Shown: positions 348 to 13,045 of the stretch, piece after piece
Position numbering within the stretch: position 1 is the first letter of the stretch
Layout: every line of letters starts with the position of its first letter
IMG/VR virus record: IMGVR_UViG_3300024259_000185
Coordinates: 1 to 20,224 of that record
Direction: 5' to 3' (one strand)
From: a virus
Length of the DNA stretch: 20,224 nt
Position numbers and translations under genes: made by a program
The notes under the pieces: generated by a model
The model's database searches: none
What the model was told of the DNA's origin: nothing
The model's input: the letters and a program-made list of their open reading frames with translations, nothing else

Positions 348-1160
348 ATGAATAGTTTAAAATACCTTATATTGATGATTTCATTAATATTTTTACCATC
401 CTGTGGTGGGACATTTAATGGATATTTTGCTTTAAAACAGAAGCTTCCTTTCGATTCTTTTGTAAAGGTAGTAGCAACTTACGATGTAACAAAATGTGTA
501 GATAATACCTGTATGAACTTTAAATTAGGAGCGACTTCCAGTGGGTCGATCGTAAGAACATATCCTCACGGTTCTTATATCCTGACAACAGGACATAGCT
601 GCGATCCTAGTGCTATCTTAAACGATCTAGGAGGTAACGCCAAAGTAAAGCAGAAAACTTTTCTTATTGATATGAATGGAGTTAAACACGATACCAAGAC
701 CATAAATATCAATAATAAACTTGATACTTGTATATTGTATGCTGGCGGGTTTGATAAGGCTCCAGTAAAAATAGAGAGAAACGATGCTCCTGTAATTGGA
801 GATAAAATCTATAATATTGCGGCTCCAGTGGGAATGTTTAACGTTCAGACCGCGCCAGTCTTAGAAGGACGATACTCTGGGCATAAGTGGGGGTTTTCTC
901 TTTATACTGTGCCAGCTATAGGTGGTTCATCTGGTTCTCCTTTGTTCAACGAAAGAGGAAAACTAGTTGGTATGATTCATTCGGTTCATAGAAGATTTCA
1001 TCATCTTTCGTTTGGTCCGACGCACCCTCAACTAATCAACTATATTTATAAGCACACGCCATTTCATGTGCCGGAGGGAGTTTCTTTAGAGGTAGATGGA
1101 ACTCAAAAAGACAGTACTTTTGATACCAAAGATCATCTTTTAGATATTAAGATTAAATAA
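348..1160 (+). CDS. Secreted trypsin-like serine protease, predicted lipoprotein
   Basis: This 270-residue protein starts with a lipoprotein signal: a hydrophobic stretch (residues 5-16) ending in the lipobox LPSC, with Cys19 as the likely lipidated residue. A chymotrypsin-fold triad can be placed: His83 in LTTGHSC, Asp126 in LDTCIL, and Ser195 in GGSSGSPLF (the GxSGxP nucleophile box). After that come NERGKLVGMIHSV, the usual strand after the serine, and a short charged tail. It should act in the periplasm or at the outer membrane of the host cell. The start is supported by AGGAG ten bases upstream. It is the first plus-strand gene of a divergent pair and overlaps the convergent phosphomannomutase gene by 8 bases. 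Substrate unknown; degradation of envelope proteins or exclusion of other phages are possibilities. Confidence 0.85.
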   Translation: MNSLKYLILMISLIFLPSCGGTFNGYFALKQKLPFDSFVKVVATYDVTKCVDNTCMNFKLGATSSGSIVRTYPHGSYILTTGHSCDPSAILNDLGGNAKVKQKTFLIDMNGVKHDTKTININNKLDTCILYAGGFDKAPVKIERNDAPVIGDKIYNIAAPVGMFNVQTAPVLEGRYSGHKWGFSLYTVPAIGGSSGSPLFNERGKLVGMIHSVHRRFHHLSFGPTHPQLINYIYKHTPFHVPEGVSLEVDGTQKDSTFDTKDHLLDIKIK

Positions 1161-1899
1161 TGTCTTCAGAAGAAGATAATCTTTTAAGAATAGAAAACGT
1201 TTCACGTTCGCTTTTTACGCAATAGTAAGAATGTTCTACGTCTAGCTTTTTCATTTCTTCTACTAAGTCCCAATCGTTGCCTCCGGGCTGGGCTTGGTCA
1301 CCGAAGAACTTATAATGAACCCGGTTTTCCCCGAACTTGTGTAGAATCCATTGAAACGCTTGACCTTTGTGGTTTCCTATGGGATATATGTCTATACTTA
1401 TTTTGCCGCCGATTGAAGCCTGGAGTTCATCTTCAAAATTCTCATTAATAAAGTTGGCGACTTCTTCTCTTTCTTTAGAGCGACAGTCGTAAGTATAATA
1501 TCCTTCTCTCTGCATGTGTGAAGCGTTTCTCCCTACGATAGAAAAGTTTATCATACCTGGGCGGTGCTCGATGTGGTTCCCGGTTCTTAAGACATATCCT
1601 GTTTTATCTAAAAACCTTTTTAAATGAGTTAAAAGACGATCAGACGGCTCAAATTTGTTTTCATATACTTTTTCATTGTCAATATGAAGTACATTACCCA
1701 TGCATGTGAAGACTCCTCTAGCATTGTCCATTATTTCAAAAGGAACTTGAAATCTAGTTTTCTTTATATCACTGCCGGTAATAAGGTAATAAACCTTATC
1801 TTGACTCCATTCTAAGAAAAATTTCTTAAAACTAGATTTCATTTTTTGACGGGCGGGTGTTAATGTCCCATCAACATCAAACATGTAAATTGTTTTCAT
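1153..1899 (-). CDS. Phosphomannomutase, eukaryotic-type HAD family (alpha-PMM-like)
   Basis: This 248-residue protein is close to the normal length of eukaryotic PMM. The catalytic HAD box FDVDGTLTP places the nucleophile at Asp8 and the general acid at Asp10. PMM-specific motifs follow in order: RPGMINFSIVGR (113-124), ISIDIYPIGNHKG (167-179; the family usually has SFD-x-FP-x-G-x-DK), and FFGDQAQPGGNDWDL (198-212; FFGD-x-x-x-x-GGND in the family). The cap domain between the two halves is present. PMM interconverts mannose-6-phosphate and mannose-1-phosphate, feeding GDP-mannose and glycan synthesis. The stop of this gene's upstream neighbour (ClpP-like) overlaps its ATG by four bases, which suggests translational coupling. 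All catalytic motifs look intact, so it is probably active. A related HAD phosphatase role is the main alternative. Confidence 0.9.
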   Translation of the reverse strand: MKTIYMFDVDGTLTPARQKMKSSFKKFFLEWSQDKVYYLITGSDIKKTRFQVPFEIMDNARGVFTCMGNVLHIDNEKVYENKFEPSDRLLTHLKRFLDKTGYVLRTGNHIEHRPGMINFSIVGRNASHMQREGYYTYDCRSKEREEVANFINENFEDELQASIGGKISIDIYPIGNHKGQAFQWILHKFGENRVHYKFFGDQAQPGGNDWDLVEEMKKLDVEHSYYCVKSERETFSILKRLSSSEDII

Positions 1900-2516
1900 A
1901 TAATCTCGTCAATCAAACCGTACTTTAAGCATGTTTTGGCATCCCACCAAAGGTCTCTCTTTAACATTTCATTTAGTTCTTTTTTAGGAATCTTTGTTCT
2001 TTCAATGTAAAGATTCTTTATTGTGTCCATTAACAAATCATTGTTCTGCATTGAATCTTTAAGCTCTTCGTATTTGCCCCAGGACATCGAAGAAAGCTGA
2101 TGGATTAACATAAAGGCGTGTTCGTGCATTAATCTTGTAGAGCCACAAATGCTCATCATAGTAGCAGCGGAGGCGGCGCATCCATCGATAATCGTTGTTA
2201 CGGGAACTTTTGACTTAAGAATGTAATCAATTGTTGAAAACCCTGCGAAAACCGAGCCGCCATAAGAACTAATATGCAAATGAATAGGGGCTGTTGTATC
2301 TGTTTCTAAAAGTTCTTTTGATGTAATCAATTTACATTCAAGAGTCTTGAGTTCTTTGTTTAGATGGAGGTTGTTGACGTGATTCACGTTGCAATAAAAA
2401 TAAATCTTATTGTTGAGTACCTCTAATTTGTTTTTTGAAGAAGAAGAGCTATTGTCGAACCCATCATCAAAAATATTATTTTCTTGTTCTTTAGATAACC
2501 ACGTAAAGTCGTTCAT
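1896..2516 (-). CDS. ClpP-like serine peptidase
   Basis: This 206-residue protein has the ClpP/crotonase fold signature. HISSYGGSVFAG (81-92) forms the oxyanion strand, the nucleophile is Ser116 in GCAASAATMMS, and the triad His139 lies in HAFMLIHQ. Asp188 in KRDLWWDA matches the position of E. coli ClpP Asp171, followed by the YGLIDEI ending. The first ~35 residues are polar and Ser-rich and differ from the ClpP axial loop, so pairing with host ClpX/ClpA cannot be read from sequence. In phages, ClpP-like proteins also serve as prohead proteases. Here the triad and length fit either role. AAAGGAA lies before the ATG. The gene is the first of a minus-strand pair with phosphomannomutase, and the tmRNA gene is about 2 kb away on the same strand. 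Confidence 0.88.
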   Translation of the reverse strand: MNDFTWLSKEQENNIFDDGFDNSSSSSKNKLEVLNNKIYFYCNVNHVNNLHLNKELKTLECKLITSKELLETDTTAPIHLHISSYGGSVFAGFSTIDYILKSKVPVTTIIDGCAASAATMMSICGSTRLMHEHAFMLIHQLSSMSWGKYEELKDSMQNNDLLMDTIKNLYIERTKIPKKELNEMLKRDLWWDAKTCLKYGLIDEII

Positions 2517-2593
2517 TTTTTTTTATTCCTTTGCAGATGCTGCTTAGTGTCTCTATCTTTAAATATATATCCAATGGAGAATACTTACTAAAT
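2517..2593. promoter_or_regulatory. Divergent intergenic region between the ClpP-like and J-domain genes
   Basis: This 77-base gap separates divergent genes, so promoters in both directions are expected. The AT-rich core TTTAAATATATAT near 2558-2571 is a plausible -10 zone. A poor sigma70 match (TTGCAG at 2531-2536, 17-base spacer, TATCTT at 2554-2559) points to the plus strand. Neither side has a strong promoter. Confidence 0.3.
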
Positions 2594-3196
2594 ATGAACG
2601 AAGAAATCCTAAATAAGAAAATAAAAATGGAAATGAGGATTTCTCAAACTTTTTTAAAAGAGTCACAAGAGTTATTTTCAATCTACGATGATTTATTCAA
2701 ACAAGACTTTGAAAAAGAAATTAATTTTAAAGCAAGAAAACCTACAATCCAGGTCGAACCAGAAACATCGGTTGAAGGTGATCCTAAAAAAGAGATAAAA
2801 GAACTAAAAGAAAGAAAAGATAGAGACCCAGAACTTTACAAGATATATAAAAAGATCGCCATGAAAACTCATCCTGACAGAGCCGGAAGTGAAGATTTGG
2901 TTGACACATTTAACAAAGCGACTGAAGCTATAAACCAAAATGATTGGATGGTGATAATGAAGATTGCTTCAGAACTTGAAATAAAAATGCCCAAGCTCAC
3001 AATTGAACTCAGGCAAAAAATAAAAAACAATATCGTAGAAACTAACAAGAAAATAAAAAAGCTGCAAAGCACAACCGCGTGGGTCTGGGCTAATGCAGCC
3101 GATGAGCACAAAGAACAAATAAGGTTACAGGTTAGACAGTTAATGGGTATTGATGAAGAATCATTCCAAGAACATCTTAAATCAACTCAAGAGTAA
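2594..3196 (+). CDS. J-domain-like (DnaJ-type) protein
   Basis: With the ATG at 2594 the protein is 200 residues. Residues 80-128 resemble the core of a J domain: helix II LYKIYKKIAMKTHPDR with the diagnostic HPD (93-95), a short loop, then the helix III-like DTFNKATEAINQND. The first 75 residues are charged and helical. The C-terminal part (135-200) is Lys-rich, with a conserved-looking WVWANAADEHK. J proteins stimulate Hsp70 ATPase through the HPD loop, so the protein may steer host DnaK. No zinc fingers or DnaJ C-terminal domain are present. An upstream in-frame ATG at 2531 would add 21 residues that look unlike the rest and overlap the promoter region, so I prefer 2594; GGAGA near 2576 is only a fair ribosome site. 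Its end overlaps the convergent gene by 15 bases. Confidence 0.7.
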   Translation: MNEEILNKKIKMEMRISQTFLKESQELFSIYDDLFKQDFEKEINFKARKPTIQVEPETSVEGDPKKEIKELKERKDRDPELYKIYKKIAMKTHPDRAGSEDLVDTFNKATEAINQNDWMVIMKIASELEIKMPKLTIELRQKIKNNIVETNKKIKKLQSTTAWVWANAADEHKEQIRLQVRQLMGIDEESFQEHLKSTQE

Positions 3197-3361
3197 CTTT
3201 TTCTTTTTGTTACTCTCTTCAATCTTTTCCTTAGCTTCTTGTTCGGCTAAGATTTCTTCATGTTGAAGTGCAGCTAAATGCGGATACTTCTTAAACACTT
3301 GTTCCAGTGTCAGTTTTTCCTTTTTTTGAATTTCCTTTATTTTTTTTGTTACCACTCCCAT
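3182..3361 (-). CDS. Small charged helical protein, unknown function
   Basis: This protein of about 59 residues starts MGVVTKKIKEIQKKEKLTLE and continues with KKYPHLAALQHEEILAEQEAKEK. It is helical and highly charged, with no recognised domain. I chose the ATG at 3361 because GGAG sits seven bases upstream; a start six codons earlier has no such site. It begins inside the end of the preceding minus-strand gene (3291-3581) in another frame and is the last gene of this minus-strand run. Its stop overlaps the convergent J-domain gene by 15 bases. I do not recognise the family. Confidence 0.55.
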   Translation of the reverse strand: MGVVTKKIKEIQKKEKLTLEQVFKKYPHLAALQHEEILAEQEAKEKIEESNKKKKLLLS

Positions 3362-3581
3362 TTTTAGTCTCCTTTGCAAACGCTGGGTCTTTACGGTACT
3401 TTACAAGAAAGGTGTCATTCGCTTTGCGGCGGATTTTAGTTTGCATGTTTTCTTGTTTGTTTTCCGTAAAACTATTTTTGAGTATTTCTACTTGTTTGGT
3501 AGCTCCCTCATAAGTAGGGAACGTTTTATTAAGAGTCCACTTGGGACCAGGCTTTTGTACTTCTTTCACTTCTTCAATCAT
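3291..3581 (-). CDS. Small basic protein, unknown function
   Basis: This 96-residue protein has a well-formed first part with the pattern KWTLNKTFPTYEGA, then a helix, then MQTKIRRKANDTFLVKYRKDP. That pattern looks like a small beta-alpha-beta fold with an aromatic-basic surface. The tail (about residues 72-96) is a low-complexity Gly/Lys/Asn stretch. AGGAAA five bases before the ATG supports the start. The tail overlaps the start of the next gene by 71 bases in another frame, so the true functional part may end near residue 70. No family assigned; nucleic-acid binding is possible from the charge only. Confidence 0.6.
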   Translation of the reverse strand: MIEEVKEVQKPGPKWTLNKTFPTYEGATKQVEILKNSFTENKQENMQTKIRRKANDTFLVKYRKDPAFAKETKNGSGNKKNKGNSKKGKTDTGTSV

Positions 3582-3590
3582 TTTATTTCC

Positions 3591-3869
3591 TTATTTAAAA
3601 ACTGGGTCTTTGCTTGTATTCAACAGAGCAGGTATAAAACTTTTCTTTAGTTTTAGTAATCTTTCAAACTTCACCTGCGTACGAGCGTCAGTGTAGAGCG
3701 CTGTTGGCTTCTTGATCTCACCATCGATGAGCTGATCGGAGAAGTCATAGAATTTGGATTTGGGAGCTTTCGCTTCCGCGAAAGAAATCAAGGCTCCTGC
3801 CATCATCATAATGCCTGCTATCATCATAACAATTGCCAAGAGAATTGTTTTCTTGGAGAGATTTTTCAT
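3591..3869 (-). CDS. Small membrane-anchored protein
   Basis: This 92-residue protein has a basic N-terminus (KNLSKK), one Met/Ile-rich hydrophobic segment (about 8-30) ending at SFAEAKA, and a basic soluble tail of about 60 residues. It could be a signal-anchored inner-membrane protein, or a secreted protein cut after AEA or AKA. AGGA lies eight bases before the ATG. It follows the 3876-4133 gene by six bases in the same direction. Three of the small genes just downstream of the tmRNA encode membrane proteins. A lysis or superinfection role is possible but cannot be shown. Confidence 0.6.
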   Translation of the reverse strand: MKNLSKKTILLAIVMMIAGIMMMAGALISFAEAKAPKSKFYDFSDQLIDGEIKKPTALYTDARTQVKFERLLKLKKSFIPALLNTSKDPVFK

Positions 3870-3875
3870 TGTGTT

Positions 3876-4133
3876 TCATCCTATGCTGTCAAAGTTGAGC
3901 TTTTTGCTCATTGCAAGACTAACTAGTTCATAGGTTGGACTATCAGGTTTAAAATCGATTTTACGACTAACTAATGCCCTCTTTAAGGCAACTCTCTCGT
4001 CGATACTATGAATGACCCCAGATTTAATACAAACGGCTTTAATGAGCGATTTCTTGGGGTTTCTAGGAAGCTTGTTTAAAACGGCAGGAAAACTTTGTTT
4101 AAGCTCTCTTAAGATCTCATTAGTTGTTGCCAC
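3876..4133 (-). CDS. Small hypothetical protein (GTG start)
   Basis: This 85-residue protein starts with GTG: (M)ATTNEILRELKQSFPAVLNK. The rest is mostly helical and basic (KKSLIKAVCIKSG, VALKRALVSRKIDF), ending in KKLNFDSIG. AAGGTG five bases upstream supports the GTG. It overlaps the end of the upstream 59-codon membrane-protein gene by 14 bases in another frame, which suggests translational coupling. No domain recognised. The 18-residue pattern around SPTYELVSLAMSKK gives no lead to function. Confidence 0.6.
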   Translation of the reverse strand: MATTNEILRELKQSFPAVLNKLPRNPKKSLIKAVCIKSGVIHSIDERVALKRALVSRKIDFKPDSPTYELVSLAMSKKLNFDSIG

Positions 4134-4299
4134 GAATCACCTTCTTTGATTTAATTGGTTTTCCACACGCTGTAAGCTTATTCATGTTACTTATTTTATC
4201 AGACATTCTATCCAATCTTTTACCAAGGTATAAAGCTCCAGACCACATGGGGATGGCGACTGAACACCAGATAATTAAAAAATCAAGCGTACTAAACAT
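4120..4299 (-). CDS. Small single-pass membrane protein (59 aa)
   Basis: The protein starts MFSTLDFLIIWCSVAIPMWS, which supplies one transmembrane segment (about residues 5-26). A basic cytoplasmic-type tail with GKRLDRMSDKISNMNKL follows and ends KSKKVIRGNN. It has a strong ribosome site (GAGGAAATAAT then ATG). The stop of the preceding small membrane gene (4301) lies just upstream and its own end overlaps the next GTG gene, so the frame is embedded in a compact coupled run. Its topology (short N-terminus, one hydrophobic helix, charged tail) resembles many small phage holins or antiholins, but there is no family signature to prove it. Confidence 0.65.
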   Translation of the reverse strand: MFSTLDFLIIWCSVAIPMWSGALYLGKRLDRMSDKISNMNKLTACGKPIKSKKVIRGNN

Positions 4300-4300
4300 A

Positions 4301-4450
4301 TTATTTCCTCTTTGGTTTGTTTGTCAAGTTAGGTTGTTCTTTCACCATATTTTTTACTACCGTACTGTGCAATGCAAGGCGCCAGTTAAAATATAGAAAA
4401 GAAGCTGAGTTAATCCCAATCAATATCCATAATAATTCTTCTGTTGTCAT
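4301..4450 (-). CDS. Small single-pass membrane protein (49 aa)
   Basis: The protein starts MTTEELLWILIGINSASFLY, with one transmembrane helix at about residues 5-22, then a basic tail ending EQPNLTNKPKRK. GGAG six bases before the ATG at 4450 fixes the start. The frame stays open farther upstream, but that extension runs through the tRNA-like element and the tmRNA 3' end and is not coding. The gene begins 15 bases after the tRNA-like element, so it is probably co-transcribed with the tmRNA and freed by processing. The next gene starts two bases after its stop. Confidence 0.65.
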   Translation of the reverse strand: MTTEELLWILIGINSASFLYFNWRLALHSTVVKNMVKEQPNLTNKPKRK

Positions 4451-4464
4451 TTTTTCTCCGTTAG

Positions 4465-4510
4465 AGCCACCTGCCAGAGTCGAACTGACGATCTGCTGAA
4501 CTAAAGTGGC
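4465..4510 (-). pseudogene. tRNA-Thr-like remnant lacking the anticodon arm (46 nt)
   Basis: On the minus strand, GCCACTT (4510-4504) pairs with AGGTGGC (4472-4466) in a full seven-pair acceptor stem with one T-G pair. A perfect T arm lies inside: GTCAG, the loop TTCGACT, and CTGGC. After the acceptor comes TAGTTCAGC, the usual start of a D arm, but then AGATC leads straight to the T arm. The rest of the D arm, the anticodon arm and most of the variable loop are missing. The AGATCGTCAGTTCGACTCTGGC part looks like a bacterial tRNA-Thr (family memory, not a search). No CCA is encoded. It starts six bases after the tmRNA CCA. It may be a deletion relic or an RNase P/RNase Z processing element. 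Confidence 0.75.
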
Positions 4511-4516
4511 GTGGGT

Positions 4517-4880
4517 TGGTGGAGGTGTCGGGAGTCGAACCCGAGTCCAATATGTCTCTCTACTTCTGTCATTCACAAGGTTATCTAGTTTTTCTAAACC
4601 AGCAAAATAATCTGCAATATCCCTTATCCTATGCAGTCTCGGATATCCACCTGCTATAAGCAGGGAGCCATTATGGTTTATTGTAATGTCAGAGGAACCA
4701 CCCTCTTAGTCGCTATTGGTTAATAAGGTCAGCAACAACCCCAGAACTACGCAGCTTGTGCGTAATTCAACTCCACATTATCGTTGGCGTTTAAAAAATT
4801 GAATGTTTTTTACTGTGCCTTCATTCATCACAGCCTTGCACAGAAATGCTTCAACACAATGTCAAAACCTGTTCACCCCC
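4517..4880 (-). ncRNA. ssrA: tmRNA (transfer-messenger RNA), one-piece
   Basis: The 364-nt RNA has every hallmark. The 5' end GGGGGTG pairs with CACCTCC near the 3' end, and the third pair is G-U, the alanine identity element. The T arm is TCGGG, loop TTCGACT, CCCGA. Discriminator A and an encoded CCA (4519-4517) follow. After the 5' domain comes an H-type pseudoknot: CTGTGC/GCACAG (4843-4838 with 4818-4813), and loop TGAATG (4827-4822) pairs with CATTCA (4805-4800). Next is the resume codon GCC and a 13-residue tag reading frame. It rescues stalled ribosomes: alanine is added, the RNA switches templates and the product is tagged for proteolysis. A sigma70-like promoter lies just upstream and YkuK/Smr genes precede it. 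Large-phage tmRNAs are known, for example in some mycobacteriophages. This one is complete and probably functional. Confidence 0.97.
4747..4788 (-). other. tmRNA tag reading frame: ANDNVELNYAQAA
   Basis: Fourteen codons from the resume codon GCC to TAG, 18 bases after the second strand of the first pseudoknot's inner stem. The tag is ANDNVELNYAQAA. It starts AND as in many bacterial tags, and ends AQAA where most end in ALAA. The final AA is the part read by ClpX in known bacteria, so the degron looks kept, with Gln in place of Leu. Confidence 0.93.
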
Positions 4881-4903
4881 ATGTTTTTAAAGAACTTACG
4901 TTA

Positions 4904-4932
4904 AGTATAATAACAAACCCTTAAGTTTTCAA
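4904..4932 (-). promoter_or_regulatory. Sigma70-like promoter for the tmRNA
   Basis: On the minus strand TTGAAA (4932-4927) and TATACT (4909-4904) are separated by exactly 17 bases; each differs from the sigma70 consensus at one base. The expected start near 4897 would leave about 17 bases of 5' leader for RNase P to remove before GGGGGTG at 4880. The promoter lies in the gap after the YkuK gene stop (4941), so the tmRNA can be made by unmodified host RNA polymerase. Confidence 0.75.
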
Positions 4933-4940
4933 GTCTTTTT

Positions 4941-5411
4941 TTATTTATTATGTTTGTCTGCTACAGATGTAGCTGCGAAAGCATCTGGCTTTATTTTACA
5001 AGGGAAGCCAACTCCTTTAGCATATCCAACCAACATATCAGAGAATCTGCTTGTTGCTTCTTTTTTATCGGAAGCAGAAATATCTAAATGAAGTTCGATG
5101 TTCACAGCAGGGCATTGTCCTAAGATATTTAAAGCAGTGTTTACTGTGTTCTCAACTTCATATGTGATTCTCTCCATAAGAGTTGGGAATTTTGTTACCT
5201 TGAAGCGGGTTCGTTTAAAATAATAACGTCCTCCGATCTGGTCATTTGCTCCGTGGAGGCATATAGCAGTAGAGTAAATACATTCTTTTTTTACAATATG
5301 ACTGTCAGTCCCAATATATACTTGTCCTTCTTTGGAAGAGTGCTCTTCTATTTCTTTTAGAATATCTTCGTAAGTTGTTTTTTCGTGGGAGCCGTTTGAC
5401 CAGAGGTCCAT
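4941..5411 (-). CDS. YkuK-family (DUF458) RNase H-fold protein
   Basis: This 156-residue protein has the first-strand motif VYIGTDSHIV (31-40, Asp36), which starts RNase H-fold enzymes. It then has ICLHG, a YFKRTRFKV strand, a long helix with ERITYEVENTVNTAL, the strand NIELHLDISASDKKEATS with further acidic residues, and the family ending KPDAFAATSVADKHNK. This order matches Bacillus YkuK-type proteins, which are predicted RNase H-like and of unknown cell role. AAAGGAACAAG before the ATG supports the start. It lies between the Smr-domain gene (upstream) and the tmRNA (downstream). That suggests a role in RNA turnover or processing, but this is inference. Confidence 0.8.
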   Translation of the reverse strand: MDLWSNGSHEKTTYEDILKEIEEHSSKEGQVYIGTDSHIVKKECIYSTAICLHGANDQIGGRYYFKRTRFKVTKFPTLMERITYEVENTVNTALNILGQCPAVNIELHLDISASDKKEATSRFSDMLVGYAKGVGFPCKIKPDAFAATSVADKHNK

Positions 5412-5420
5412 CTTGTTCCT

Positions 5421-5639
5421 TTAAATGTCTGTCCTTGTTACTACCAAGCAACCAGGATTACTCAAATTTTCGTAATGACAAAAAAGTTTATATCTTTTCA
5501 CTACACTAATAACTAGCTGTTTCATTTTATCAGAGTTGCCAGTTATGATTTTAGCTGGCAGTTCTTCCCATGCTAGGAAATCTTCAACTTGGCGAATAAC
5601 ATCTTTATGACGCACATTATGTAAATCTAAAGTTTTCAT
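5421..5639 (-). CDS. Mini Smr-domain protein (DLH-type nuclease fold)
   Basis: This 72-residue protein is the size of a bare Smr domain. It has LDLHNVRHKDVIRQVEDFL at residues 4-22, matching the Smr LDLHG-x-x-x-x-x-A motif with Asp5 and His7 as the catalytic D-x-H pair. A strand KIITGNSDKMKQLV follows, at the place of the family's HG-x-G loop, and then a last strand GCLVVTRTD. The usual HGxG is TGNS here. Smr domains cleave RNA or nick DNA; E. coli SmrB cuts mRNA between collided ribosomes and feeds tmRNA rescue. The start overlaps the HTH gene by ATGA (four bases). No Shine-Dalgarno site is seen, so it probably relies on coupling. Confidence 0.75.
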   Translation of the reverse strand: MKTLDLHNVRHKDVIRQVEDFLAWEELPAKIITGNSDKMKQLVISVVKRYKLFCHYENLSNPGCLVVTRTDI

Positions 5640-5977
5640 TTTTTTGGTTTAAAGATGTTGGTTTGTTTAATGTCTAGGTATCGATTAATGTAGAGATAAT
5701 ACTCGTACATAGAGATTCCAAGAAAAGAAGCAGCTTCGCTTTTGGTCTTGGCTGCTTTGTGAGCGTAAGTTAAAACAGCGCAGCGAGTAATATCTGGTAT
5801 TGATTTCCACAAGTTAAAGCCAAACAGCTTCTTGTTGGTGGTCTTCGCAGATAGTTCCAACTTTAATGAAATCATTTCTTCAAGGGTTAAGTTTTGAAGC
5901 ATGATTTCAAACTCATCGTTAGAGCGATGTTCATTCCGCAATTGAGCCGCAATAGAACTAAATTGTTTATCTTCCAT
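5636..5977 (-). CDS. Helix-turn-helix protein, Fis-like C-terminus
   Basis: This 113-residue protein has a helical first part (LTLEEMISLKLELSAK) and then GFNLWKSIPDITRCAVLTYAHKAAKTKSEAASFLGISMYEYYLYINRY. The last 35 residues look like a Fis-type HTH: a long helix, then SEAASFLGIS as turn and recognition helix. Related proteins with the KLELSAK...KLFGFNLW pattern occur in marine T4-like phages as far as I recall; I cannot confirm that here. It may regulate transcription or bind DNA. The ATG has no Shine-Dalgarno site; a TATAAT box ends seven bases before it, so a leaderless mRNA is possible. It leads the group HTH-Smr-YkuK-tmRNA. Confidence 0.6.
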   Translation of the reverse strand: MEDKQFSSIAAQLRNEHRSNDEFEIMLQNLTLEEMISLKLELSAKTTNKKLFGFNLWKSIPDITRCAVLTYAHKAAKTKSEAASFLGISMYEYYLYINRYLDIKQTNIFKPKK

Positions 5978-11131: not shown

Positions 11132-13045
11132 CTAATTTCCGCAAACTTCCGTATCAATTATCTCCATGAGATTGACGTACATGTCTGTAGGATTATGCTT
11201 AAGTTCATACCACTTACCGCCTGACTCGGCAGCCAATGGCTCCCAACCGGTCTTTCCGAACGGCATTGTGGAGTTTTTACTAGTATAATTGGTGAATGTG
11301 TAGATTGATGTGTCTGAACTAGATGCTATCATTTTTAATAAAATGCTCTGTGTTACTCCATCGTAATTTGAATTCCAGCTTGCACCTAAAATATTCTTTG
11401 GAATCATATAGCTTTGTCCATGTTCATCTGAAAATACGATAATAACTCTCTTCGCATTTGGTCTCCAATTTACTTTAAAATTTTCTAACTCAGGTATCGA
11501 TTCTGCAATAGACTGACCAACCATCGTTGCCCAGGTTAGCTCATCCAACTGCCAGGGCTCTGTCGCTGATAAATCCATCAAAGAAAGGTATACTGCATCA
11601 TACAACATTTCGAACTGTCCGTTCATAGTATTTTTGTCTAATGACGAGAAATTAGACATAAAGTCTTCGAAAGAGTTAAGGTCGCTAACCAATTCTAAAT
11701 AATTATTATTACCTGCTTGGGCTGGGACTCTAGGTCCTACAATCAATCCCCACTGAATCACTGATTCATCTTTATAGTTTTTGGCGAACTGGTTTAACGC
11801 AATCAAAACAGCTTCGATTTCTGAACTCATAGATCCAGACCAATCTACAATAAAAAGAATATCAGTGTCCTGCATTTCTTTATCTTGGTCAACTTTACCA
11901 TCACAGTCTTCGTCTACACCGTTGCACTGGTCTTCTAACAAGGGCAATATTTCATCTTTGCAATAGCCAGCTATAAACTGTCCTGAATCAGTATAATTCC
12001 CCCACGAGCCTTCGAAACATGTAGCGACCCCGGCTTGACAAATCCCTACATCCATAGTCTCAGGAGGACCTGTGTAACAGACTTCATATAAGTCTTCATC
12101 GATAAGTTGGTTGCAGTTGTCATCATGATTGTTACAAAGCTCATAAGGAAGCGGCTTGCCTCCAAAAGGATCACAATTAGGGTCCACTGGTAATTCCCAG
12201 AAACACATAGCGAAGCAAGGAGTGAAGCCTAGATTACTACAATCAGGGTTCTTGCATTCACATGTTTTGTATCCTGAACCACACAACAAAGGATCTTCTT
12301 CGCATGGGAATAATGTCCCAATATCTTGGATAGTACACAAACAGTCTAATCCTTCATCAATAGCTCCATCGCAATCGTTGTCTATGCCATCACAGATCTC
12401 AGACTCTGGCTGTTGAGCTGTACAAGAACCCCAACTGCCATCGACACAAAGCTCATAACCGTTGTCACATATAGTGTTGCAAGGTCGAATTAAATCTTCA
12501 TCAGTATCCCCATTACAATCATCATCAATGTCATTGCATATCTCAGGAAGTTCTGGACCACATTCGTTACAAGCGTTTAATTGTCCTTCATCTATTAATC
12601 CATCGCAGTTATTATCAATACCATCGCACACTTCCTCAGTGCATTCAGTCTCACACTTACCTTCTTTGATATATCCTTTGTCACAATAAATTGTTTTCTT
12701 CCCAGGAAGCCCAGCATCTGTGGTGCAGTCTTCTTCTCCCATCTTGAATTGACTGGGATCACATTCAAGGAACTCTTCACACTCGCTGATTGAAATAACT
12801 TCCGCAGGCTCTTTACAAATATCCTTTACAATAGCTATTCGAAACAAAGGACCGGAAACACCAGGACAGAAATAATATTCTGTTCTATGACAGTCTAATT
12901 TATATTGCTCTGGTGATATAACTGGAGTAGGAGGATCATTAATTGCTTGTTGAGGTTTTTCAACAATTTGAGGCTTCTCTAAAAATGCCTCGCTGCAACC
13001 GCTCAAAACGATAGCAGCAGCTAGAATTGCTTGTGTAATTTTCAT
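11132..13045 (-). CDS. Lipoprotein with five MopE-type metal-binding repeats and a vWA domain
   Basis: The 637-residue protein has a lipoprotein signal, with lipobox LSGC and Cys17 as the likely lipid site, then a Pro-rich linker. Five copies of the repeat E-x-C-[DN]-x-x-D-[DN]-[DN]-C-[DN]-G-x-x-D-E follow at about 138-154, 168-184, 216-232, 302-318 and 372-388. Two strong examples are EVCDGIDNNCDGLIDEGQ and EICDGIDNDCDGAIDEGL. Next is a vWA domain (about 394-630) with an intact MIDAS start DWSGSMS and a later KRVIIVFSDEH. MopE repeats are proposed to bind Cu or Ca, and vWA domains bind partners through a metal ion. It probably faces the periplasm or cell surface. The A/T repeat region lies upstream and no Shine-Dalgarno site is visible. 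The family is typical of deltaproteobacterial and myxobacterial surface proteins, so it suggests the host. Confidence 0.85.
   Translation of the reverse strand: MKITQAILAAAIVLSGCSEAFLEKPQIVEKPQQAINDPPTPVISPEQYKLDCHRTEYYFCPGVSGPLFRIAIVKDICKEPAEVISISECEEFLECDPSQFKMGEEDCTTDAGLPGKKTIYCDKGYIKEGKCETECTEEVCDGIDNNCDGLIDEGQLNACNECGPELPEICNDIDDDCNGDTDEDLIRPCNTICDNGYELCVDGSWGSCTAQQPESEICDGIDNDCDGAIDEGLDCLCTIQDIGTLFPCEEDPLLCGSGYKTCECKNPDCSNLGFTPCFAMCFWELPVDPNCDPFGGKPLPYELCNNHDDNCNQLIDEDLYEVCYTGPPETMDVGICQAGVATCFEGSWGNYTDSGQFIAGYCKDEILPLLEDQCNGVDEDCDGKVDQDKEMQDTDILFIVDWSGSMSSEIEAVLIALNQFAKNYKDESVIQWGLIVGPRVPAQAGNNNYLELVSDLNSFEDFMSNFSSLDKNTMNGQFEMLYDAVYLSLMDLSATEPWQLDELTWATMVGQSIAESIPELENFKVNWRPNAKRVIIVFSDEHGQSYMIPKNILGASWNSNYDGVTQSILLKMIASSSDTSIYTFTNYTSKNSTMPFGKTGWEPLAAESGGKWYELKHNPTDMYVNLMEIIDTEVCGN

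Follow-up and report, generated by a model that had tools for sequence, protein, structure and literature searches.

A DNA fragment of 20 kb from a large uncultured phage (IMG/VR record IMGVR_UViG_3300024259_000185, positions 1 to 20,224; this whole stretch is called the window) carried on its minus strand a transfer-messenger RNA (tmRNA, ssrA) gene, preceded by genes for a helix-turn-helix (HTH) protein, a mini-Smr protein and a YkuK protein. tmRNA is an RNA that frees stalled ribosomes, and the Smr domain is a module used by bacteria to sense ribosome collisions. Smr, YkuK and tmRNA were constrained genes and not chance open reading frames (ORFs), because the ratio of nonsynonymous to synonymous substitution rates (dN/dS) relative to related phages was about 0.1 for both Smr and YkuK, and 27 helix pairs of the tmRNA showed compensatory changes. 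Smr and YkuK formed a conserved adjacent pair which travels together independently of the tmRNA. The locus is read, at a probability of about 0.5, as a phage stable-RNA block in which the tmRNA would work with host SmpB and the Smr-YkuK pair would act as an RNA-handling module. A first-pass annotation had proposed that Smr, tmRNA and a ClpP-like protease form one rescue-and-proteolysis kit; all the parts it named were found where it had placed them, between positions 1896 and 5977, and the kit was not supported as a unit.

The closest relatives of the window were IMG/VR contigs of 60-186 kb, and a DNA search of its first 8 kb against 50,697 isolated-phage records returned no match. Eleven related records carried a tmRNA: the window, G001, G003, G004, G007, G011, G012, G014, G015, G016 and L154, among which G003 (147 kb) and G004 (186 kb) were long. 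The features of the locus were:

5636..5977, minus strand: HTH gene with a weak Fis-like fold; homologue located 5' of the tmRNA in 11/11 tmRNA-bearing relatives
5421..5639, minus strand: mini-Smr protein of 72 amino acids, overlapping the HTH stop by 4 bases; identified by family profile and fold
4941..5411, minus strand: YkuK/DUF458 RNase H-fold protein (PF04308) with invariant D36, E85, D110 and D152
4904..4932, minus strand: sigma-70-like promoter TTGAAA-17-TATACT in the YkuK-tmRNA gap; hexamers the same in G007 and G001
4881..4895, minus strand: boxA-like leader GTTCTTTAAAAACAT immediately 5' of the tmRNA; most relatives, but not G003 and G004, have a similar one
4517..4880, minus strand: tmRNA (ssrA) of the one-piece type, G3-U pair kept and CCA encoded (RF00023, ARAGORN)
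4747..4788, minus strand: tag reading frame ANDNVELNYAQAA-stop inside the tmRNA (ARAGORN)
4462..4510, minus strand: remnant, lacking 27 nt internally, of a tRNA-Thr that is intact in G001 and G007

The HTH and Smr genes overlapped by 4 bases, 9 bases separated Smr from YkuK, and 60 bases separated YkuK from the tmRNA. The minus-strand order HTH, Smr, YkuK, tmRNA described previously was borne out, with Smr and YkuK beside the tmRNA in one apparent operon.

The tmRNA, Smr and YkuK genes

The tmRNA matched the full length of the RF00023 covariance model (104.1 bits against a curated cut-off of 47; model positions 1-374) and ended in ACCA. The G-U at the third acceptor pair, which gives alanine identity (G3-U), was kept in 10/10 aligned tmRNAs, and the 27 pairs with two-sided compensatory change were found among 58 predicted pairs of that alignment (n = 10). 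The complete phage tmRNA of the first-pass annotation was thus real and constrained; judged by its model match and its paired changes it is a complete, structurally constrained gene, for which charging, tagging and ribosome rescue are predicted. The tag of the window and of G007 ended in AQAA, not ALAA, which was unusual within the clade. As the sigma-70-like promoter lies within the 60-base gap, the tmRNA would be transcribable without the upstream genes. No SmpB gene was found in 13 related records, and for this reason the phage tmRNA is predicted to use host SmpB.

The promoter-tmRNA block was 96-97% identical to that of G007, with flanking genes at about 70-73%, and the pattern of block and flanks was reversed in the comparison with G001; because of this reversed contrast, the block appears to have been exchanged between phages as a unit, and recently so with respect to G007. 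The segment at about 4400-4980 (promoter, tmRNA and next short ORF) was about 90-99% identical to G007, with flanks at about 70%. A leader of the form (G/A)(T/C)TCTTT(A/G)A stood directly before most related tmRNAs, and its G001 version resembles the boxA of rRNA leaders. A tRNA-Thr directly followed the tmRNA in G001 and G007, and the window copy lacked 27 nt between short TCAGC repeats. Phage-borne ssrA is listed for mycobacteriophages Bxz1, Cali and Wildcat and for Bacillus phage G (PMC4131195); the window shares with these the phage-borne gene, and differs from them in that its tmRNA lies in a block with HTH, Smr and YkuK kept across a clade of large phages.

The window Smr taken alone fell below the Pfam cut-off for PF01713 (13.9 bits against 25.7; E 0.062), and 10/10 scanned members of its family matched Smr at E values up to 0.1 (best 3.7e-5). 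Its predicted model had a predicted local distance difference test (pLDDT) score of 93, and the best fold matches of the model were solved Smr domains (Thermus thermophilus MutS2, Z 10.8, 1.8 Å over 70 residues). Judged by these fold and family-profile matches, the previously proposed mini Smr-domain gene encodes a divergent yet true Smr fold, and is a member of a large phage mini-Smr family, for which a profile scan of IMG/VR found 330 homologous stretches. The DxH motif was invariant in 25 sequences of the family, and HGxG was replaced by TGxS; the HGxG motif has been associated with the cleavage of mRNA and with RNA binding (PMC10897456). The phage protein has the Smr fold and DxH in common with E. 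coli SmrB and bacterial Smr proteins, and differs from SmrB in its length of 72 amino acids, the lack of an N-terminal extension and TGxS in place of HGxG; its action at collided ribosomes is putative. No account of a phage-encoded Smr domain was found in the literature search.

YkuK matched PF04308 over its full length (E 7e-28; 97.9 bits against a cut-off of 25), and acidic residues D36, E85, D110 and D152 were invariant in 18 YkuK sequences, so that the identity of the YkuK RNase H-fold gene, as annotated before, was clear. The full-length profile match and the acidic residues are shared with B. subtilis YkuK (DUF458, PF04308), compared with which the phage member is often within tRNA or tmRNA arrays. 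A sequence search with the YkuK profile found no match among solved structures. The family has been placed in the RNase H1 clade (PMC3985635), and no description of a function for YkuK (DUF458) was found in the literature searched. The HTH protein of the window had no Pfam match and a weak fold match to Fis.

Gene order and tRNA neighbourhoods among phages

Each of the 11 tmRNA-bearing records contained both HTH and YkuK, and three arrangements were seen: HTH-Smr-YkuK-tmRNA (window, G001, G007), HTH and tmRNA sharing a strand with YkuK divergent (G011-G016), and HTH-tmRNA with YkuK 10-13 kb away (G003, G004). The HTH gene was at most about 0.3 kb from the tmRNA, or had only Smr-YkuK in between, in 10 of the 11. 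Smr was present in 4/11 and missing from 7, including G003 and G004. Elsewhere (L042-L047, L161-L164, L167) Smr directly preceded YkuK, mostly overlapping it or a few bases apart, with a dUTPase gene upstream of the pair and an IMP dehydrogenase gene downstream; ClpP was found further on in these contigs, as was GroEL where the contig reached it, and ARAGORN detected no tmRNA in their available DNA. The Smr-YkuK pair is therefore independent of the tmRNA, being kept in contigs with no detected tmRNA. The co-occurrence of Smr, YkuK and ssrA expected by the first-pass annotation held for Smr and YkuK as an adjacent pair, and did not hold for Smr with ssrA, Smr being found in only four of the 11 tmRNA-bearing records.

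In five relatives (L150-L153, L155) the gene order HTH, YkuK, phosphomannomutase (PMM), ClpP and trypsin-like protease was kept and no tmRNA was detected; these contigs are short, and a tmRNA may lie elsewhere in their genomes. In four of the five, tRNAs were located between HTH and YkuK or just past YkuK, and an Rfam search at E 0.1 of the stretch between HTH and YkuK in L150, L151, L153 and L155 revealed no overlooked tmRNA.

YkuK was found in tRNA-related settings in other phages. It was within a tRNA array in Rhodobacter and Ruegeria phages, directly after a peptidyl-tRNA hydrolase gene in RcXuper (PTH2) and in RpAliso (annotated as peptidyl-tRNA hydrolase), and beside a tRNA-nucleotidyltransferase-like gene (polyA-pol-head, CCA-adding type) in Cronobacter phage S13. 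A permuted tmRNA was about 500 bases from YkuK in Synechococcus phage BUCT-ZZ01, and Rfam-confirmed permuted tmRNAs were about 50 to 510 bp from it in L287, L302 and L123. Two IMG/VR sets of YkuK loci (A1 and A2, 80 loci each, those of A2 being of the kind just described) were compared with the nearness expected from random positions within the same loci: a tRNA or tmRNA was within 200 bp of YkuK in 26/80 loci of A1 (10.9 expected) and in 69/80 loci of A2 (29.9 expected). After 70% redundancy removal, 13/13 loci had a tRNA or tmRNA within 1 kb (7.6 expected).

The ClpP-like protease and its neighbours

Two further parts of the proposed kit were located downstream of the tmRNA:

1896..2516, minus strand: ClpP-like serine protease (PF00574), about 2 kb downstream of the tmRNA
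2531..3196, plus strand: J-domain-like gene diverging from ClpP, with a weak DnaJ match; listed TTG start, the true start being perhaps further in

The ClpP-like protease with an intact triad was confirmed (PF00574, E 2.7e-26), Ser, His and Asp being kept in AASAA, LIHQ and KRDLWW motifs. The J-domain-like gene was present on the other strand as described, and its assignment was weaker, since its DnaJ match was below the Pfam cut-off (PF00226, 23.0 bits against 27.8; E 8.5e-5). The ClpP-like protein scored far below the NCBIfam ClpP equivalog model (TIGR00493, 51.5 bits against 308.6) and closer to the head maturation model (NF045542, 110.6 against 120), and its best PHROG and NCBIfam matches were head maturation proteases. 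It shares PF00574 and the intact Ser-His-Asp triad with ClpP-related head maturation proteases, and differs from them in lying outside a head cluster and having no fused scaffold domain. A separate T4-type S77 prohead protease was present elsewhere in five relatives (G001, G003, G004, G007, G008), following a gene that reads as portal in G007; because of this separate protease, the alternative that the ClpP-like protein is itself a prohead protease, raised by the first-pass annotation, was rejected as probably incorrect.

In ten records, about 2-10 kb separated ClpP from the tmRNA, and no AAA_2/ClpX-type unfoldase was found in the same 13 related records searched for SmpB. As ClpP was also kept where no tmRNA was detected, its position near the tmRNA does not specifically support a common pathway, and its gene neighbourhoods suggest that it is probably a separate neighbour belonging to an independently kept gene set. 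A second ClpP occurred in G003, G004, G007 and G008, near GroEL in the last three, and its catalytic Asp position aligned with Asn. A cassette of IMP dehydrogenase, second ClpP and GroEL was seen in L044, L006 and G007 (at about 137-144 kb), and the ClpP of the G007 cassette kept Ser and His, with Asn for Asp.

Three other genes of the window were noted. A trypsin-like protease with a lipoprotein-type start (348-1160, plus strand) adjoined ClpP, or ClpP-PMM, in all subgroups, and a HAD-type phosphatase (1153-1899, minus strand) had a eukaryotic phosphomannomutase as its best Pfam match. A large Cys-rich protein (11132-13045, minus strand) with CDGIDNDCDGAIDEG-type repeats and a lipoprotein-like start was kept in relatives, and may hint at a host using such proteins.

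Interpretation of the locus

In the stable-RNA reading, each functional step of which we infer from families and neighbourhoods, the block would consist of a Fis-like DNA-binding protein, the mini-Smr protein, the YkuK nuclease and a tmRNA transcribed from a host-type promoter of its own, with tRNA-Thr next in relatives. The tmRNA may be regulated, or merely neighboured, by the Fis-like protein. During infection it would be charged with alanine, loaded by host AlaRS, SmpB and EF-Tu, and would release ribosomes that have stalled on broken mRNA, allowing phage translation to go on, with tagged products going to host proteases. Smr and YkuK would jointly form an RNA-handling module in which Smr binds RNA or ribosomes and YkuK cuts or trims RNA; candidate substrates include the tmRNA and tRNAs as well as the mRNA of stalled ribosomes. 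ClpP would be part of the neighbouring, independently kept gene set. A further proposal is that Smr-YkuK is an undescribed phage two-gene RNA module serving tRNA, tmRNA or stalled ribosomes, and joined to the tmRNA in this clade; it could, for example, repair or protect translation under shutdown by host defence. This proposal is speculative and on balance unlikely.

Several observations weigh against the stable-RNA reading. Common descent accounts in part for the gene order that related phages share, and the excess of tRNA or tmRNA within 200 bp of YkuK was modest after 70% redundancy removal (8/13 against 5.3 expected). Few of the best 80 of the 330 mini-Smr stretches were near a tRNA or YkuK. 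One YkuK group (L172-L188) was flanked by a RuvC-like gene and a CHC2 zinc-finger primase-like gene, with an SbcCD-like gene next in order; the tRNA setting of YkuK is therefore frequent and not universal. The RuvC-like label is what a reading of the sequence suggests, with no Pfam match, and a DNA-replication setting and role are possible for this group. A search of bacterial genomes with two tmRNA patterns, aimed at the host, gave no match.

The same neighbourhoods bear on two other accounts. YkuK could chiefly be a nuclease for tRNA or tmRNA maturation or quality control, assisted by Smr, with ribosome collisions playing no part; its place in tRNA arrays, the peptidyl-tRNA hydrolase or CCA-adding-type enzymes encoded beside it, and the tmRNAs, both one-piece and permuted, that adjoin it in unrelated phages argue for this, but Smr-YkuK pairs occurred in contigs in whose available DNA no tRNA or tmRNA was found, and the primase-linked group fits it poorly, so that we consider it rather unlikely. 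That primase-linked group, the RNase H1 clade placement (PMC3985635) and the apparent exchange of the promoter-tmRNA block between lineages, with its higher identity to G007 than its flanks, are instead consistent with genes that are loose neighbours in a shared ancestral block, YkuK being an RNase H-type enzyme of replication or recombination, Smr a nucleic-acid-binding protein and the tmRNA exchangeable cargo. The repeated nearness of YkuK to tRNA or tmRNA in unrelated phages and the adjacency of Smr and YkuK kept in two different genomic settings speak against such a loose association, which is also on the improbable side.

A complete phage-encoded collision-rescue-proteolysis kit, in which phage Smr would cut the mRNA of collided ribosomes, the tmRNA would rescue them, and phage ClpP with host ClpX would degrade the tagged products, is possible but not favoured, and we judge it very unlikely. 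The invariant DxH of the Smr family, the kept ClpP triad, the closeness of ClpP to the tmRNA in ten records (about 2-10 kb) and the low probability of a prohead role are compatible with it. The link between Smr, tmRNA and ClpP nevertheless stays inferential, because Smr was patchy among tmRNA-bearing records (4/11), was paired with YkuK elsewhere with no detected tmRNA, and lacked HGxG, the motif connected with mRNA cleavage and RNA binding (PMC10897456); because ClpP, YkuK and HTH kept their order in syntenic contigs with no detected tmRNA (L150-L153, L155); and because neither SmpB nor an AAA_2/ClpX-type gene was found in the 13 related records. The 72-residue Smr without an SmrB-like N-terminal extension, the similarity of ClpP to head-maturation relatives and the AQAA end of the window and G007 tag, in place of ALAA, also count against the kit. 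Co-occurrence of Smr, tmRNA and ClpP beyond shared descent was not found, and a single Smr-tmRNA-ClpP pathway was rejected as the leading explanation, Smr being patchy and ClpP persisting where no tmRNA was detected.

Phage tmRNAs are known yet unexplained, and this clade supplies a conserved genetic setting for one, linking phage tmRNA to YkuK through a recurring tRNA and tmRNA neighbourhood. That neighbourhood is a testable lead on the role of the widespread YkuK family, whose members have no known function, and the mini-Smr family indicates that Smr domains are widely carried by phages.

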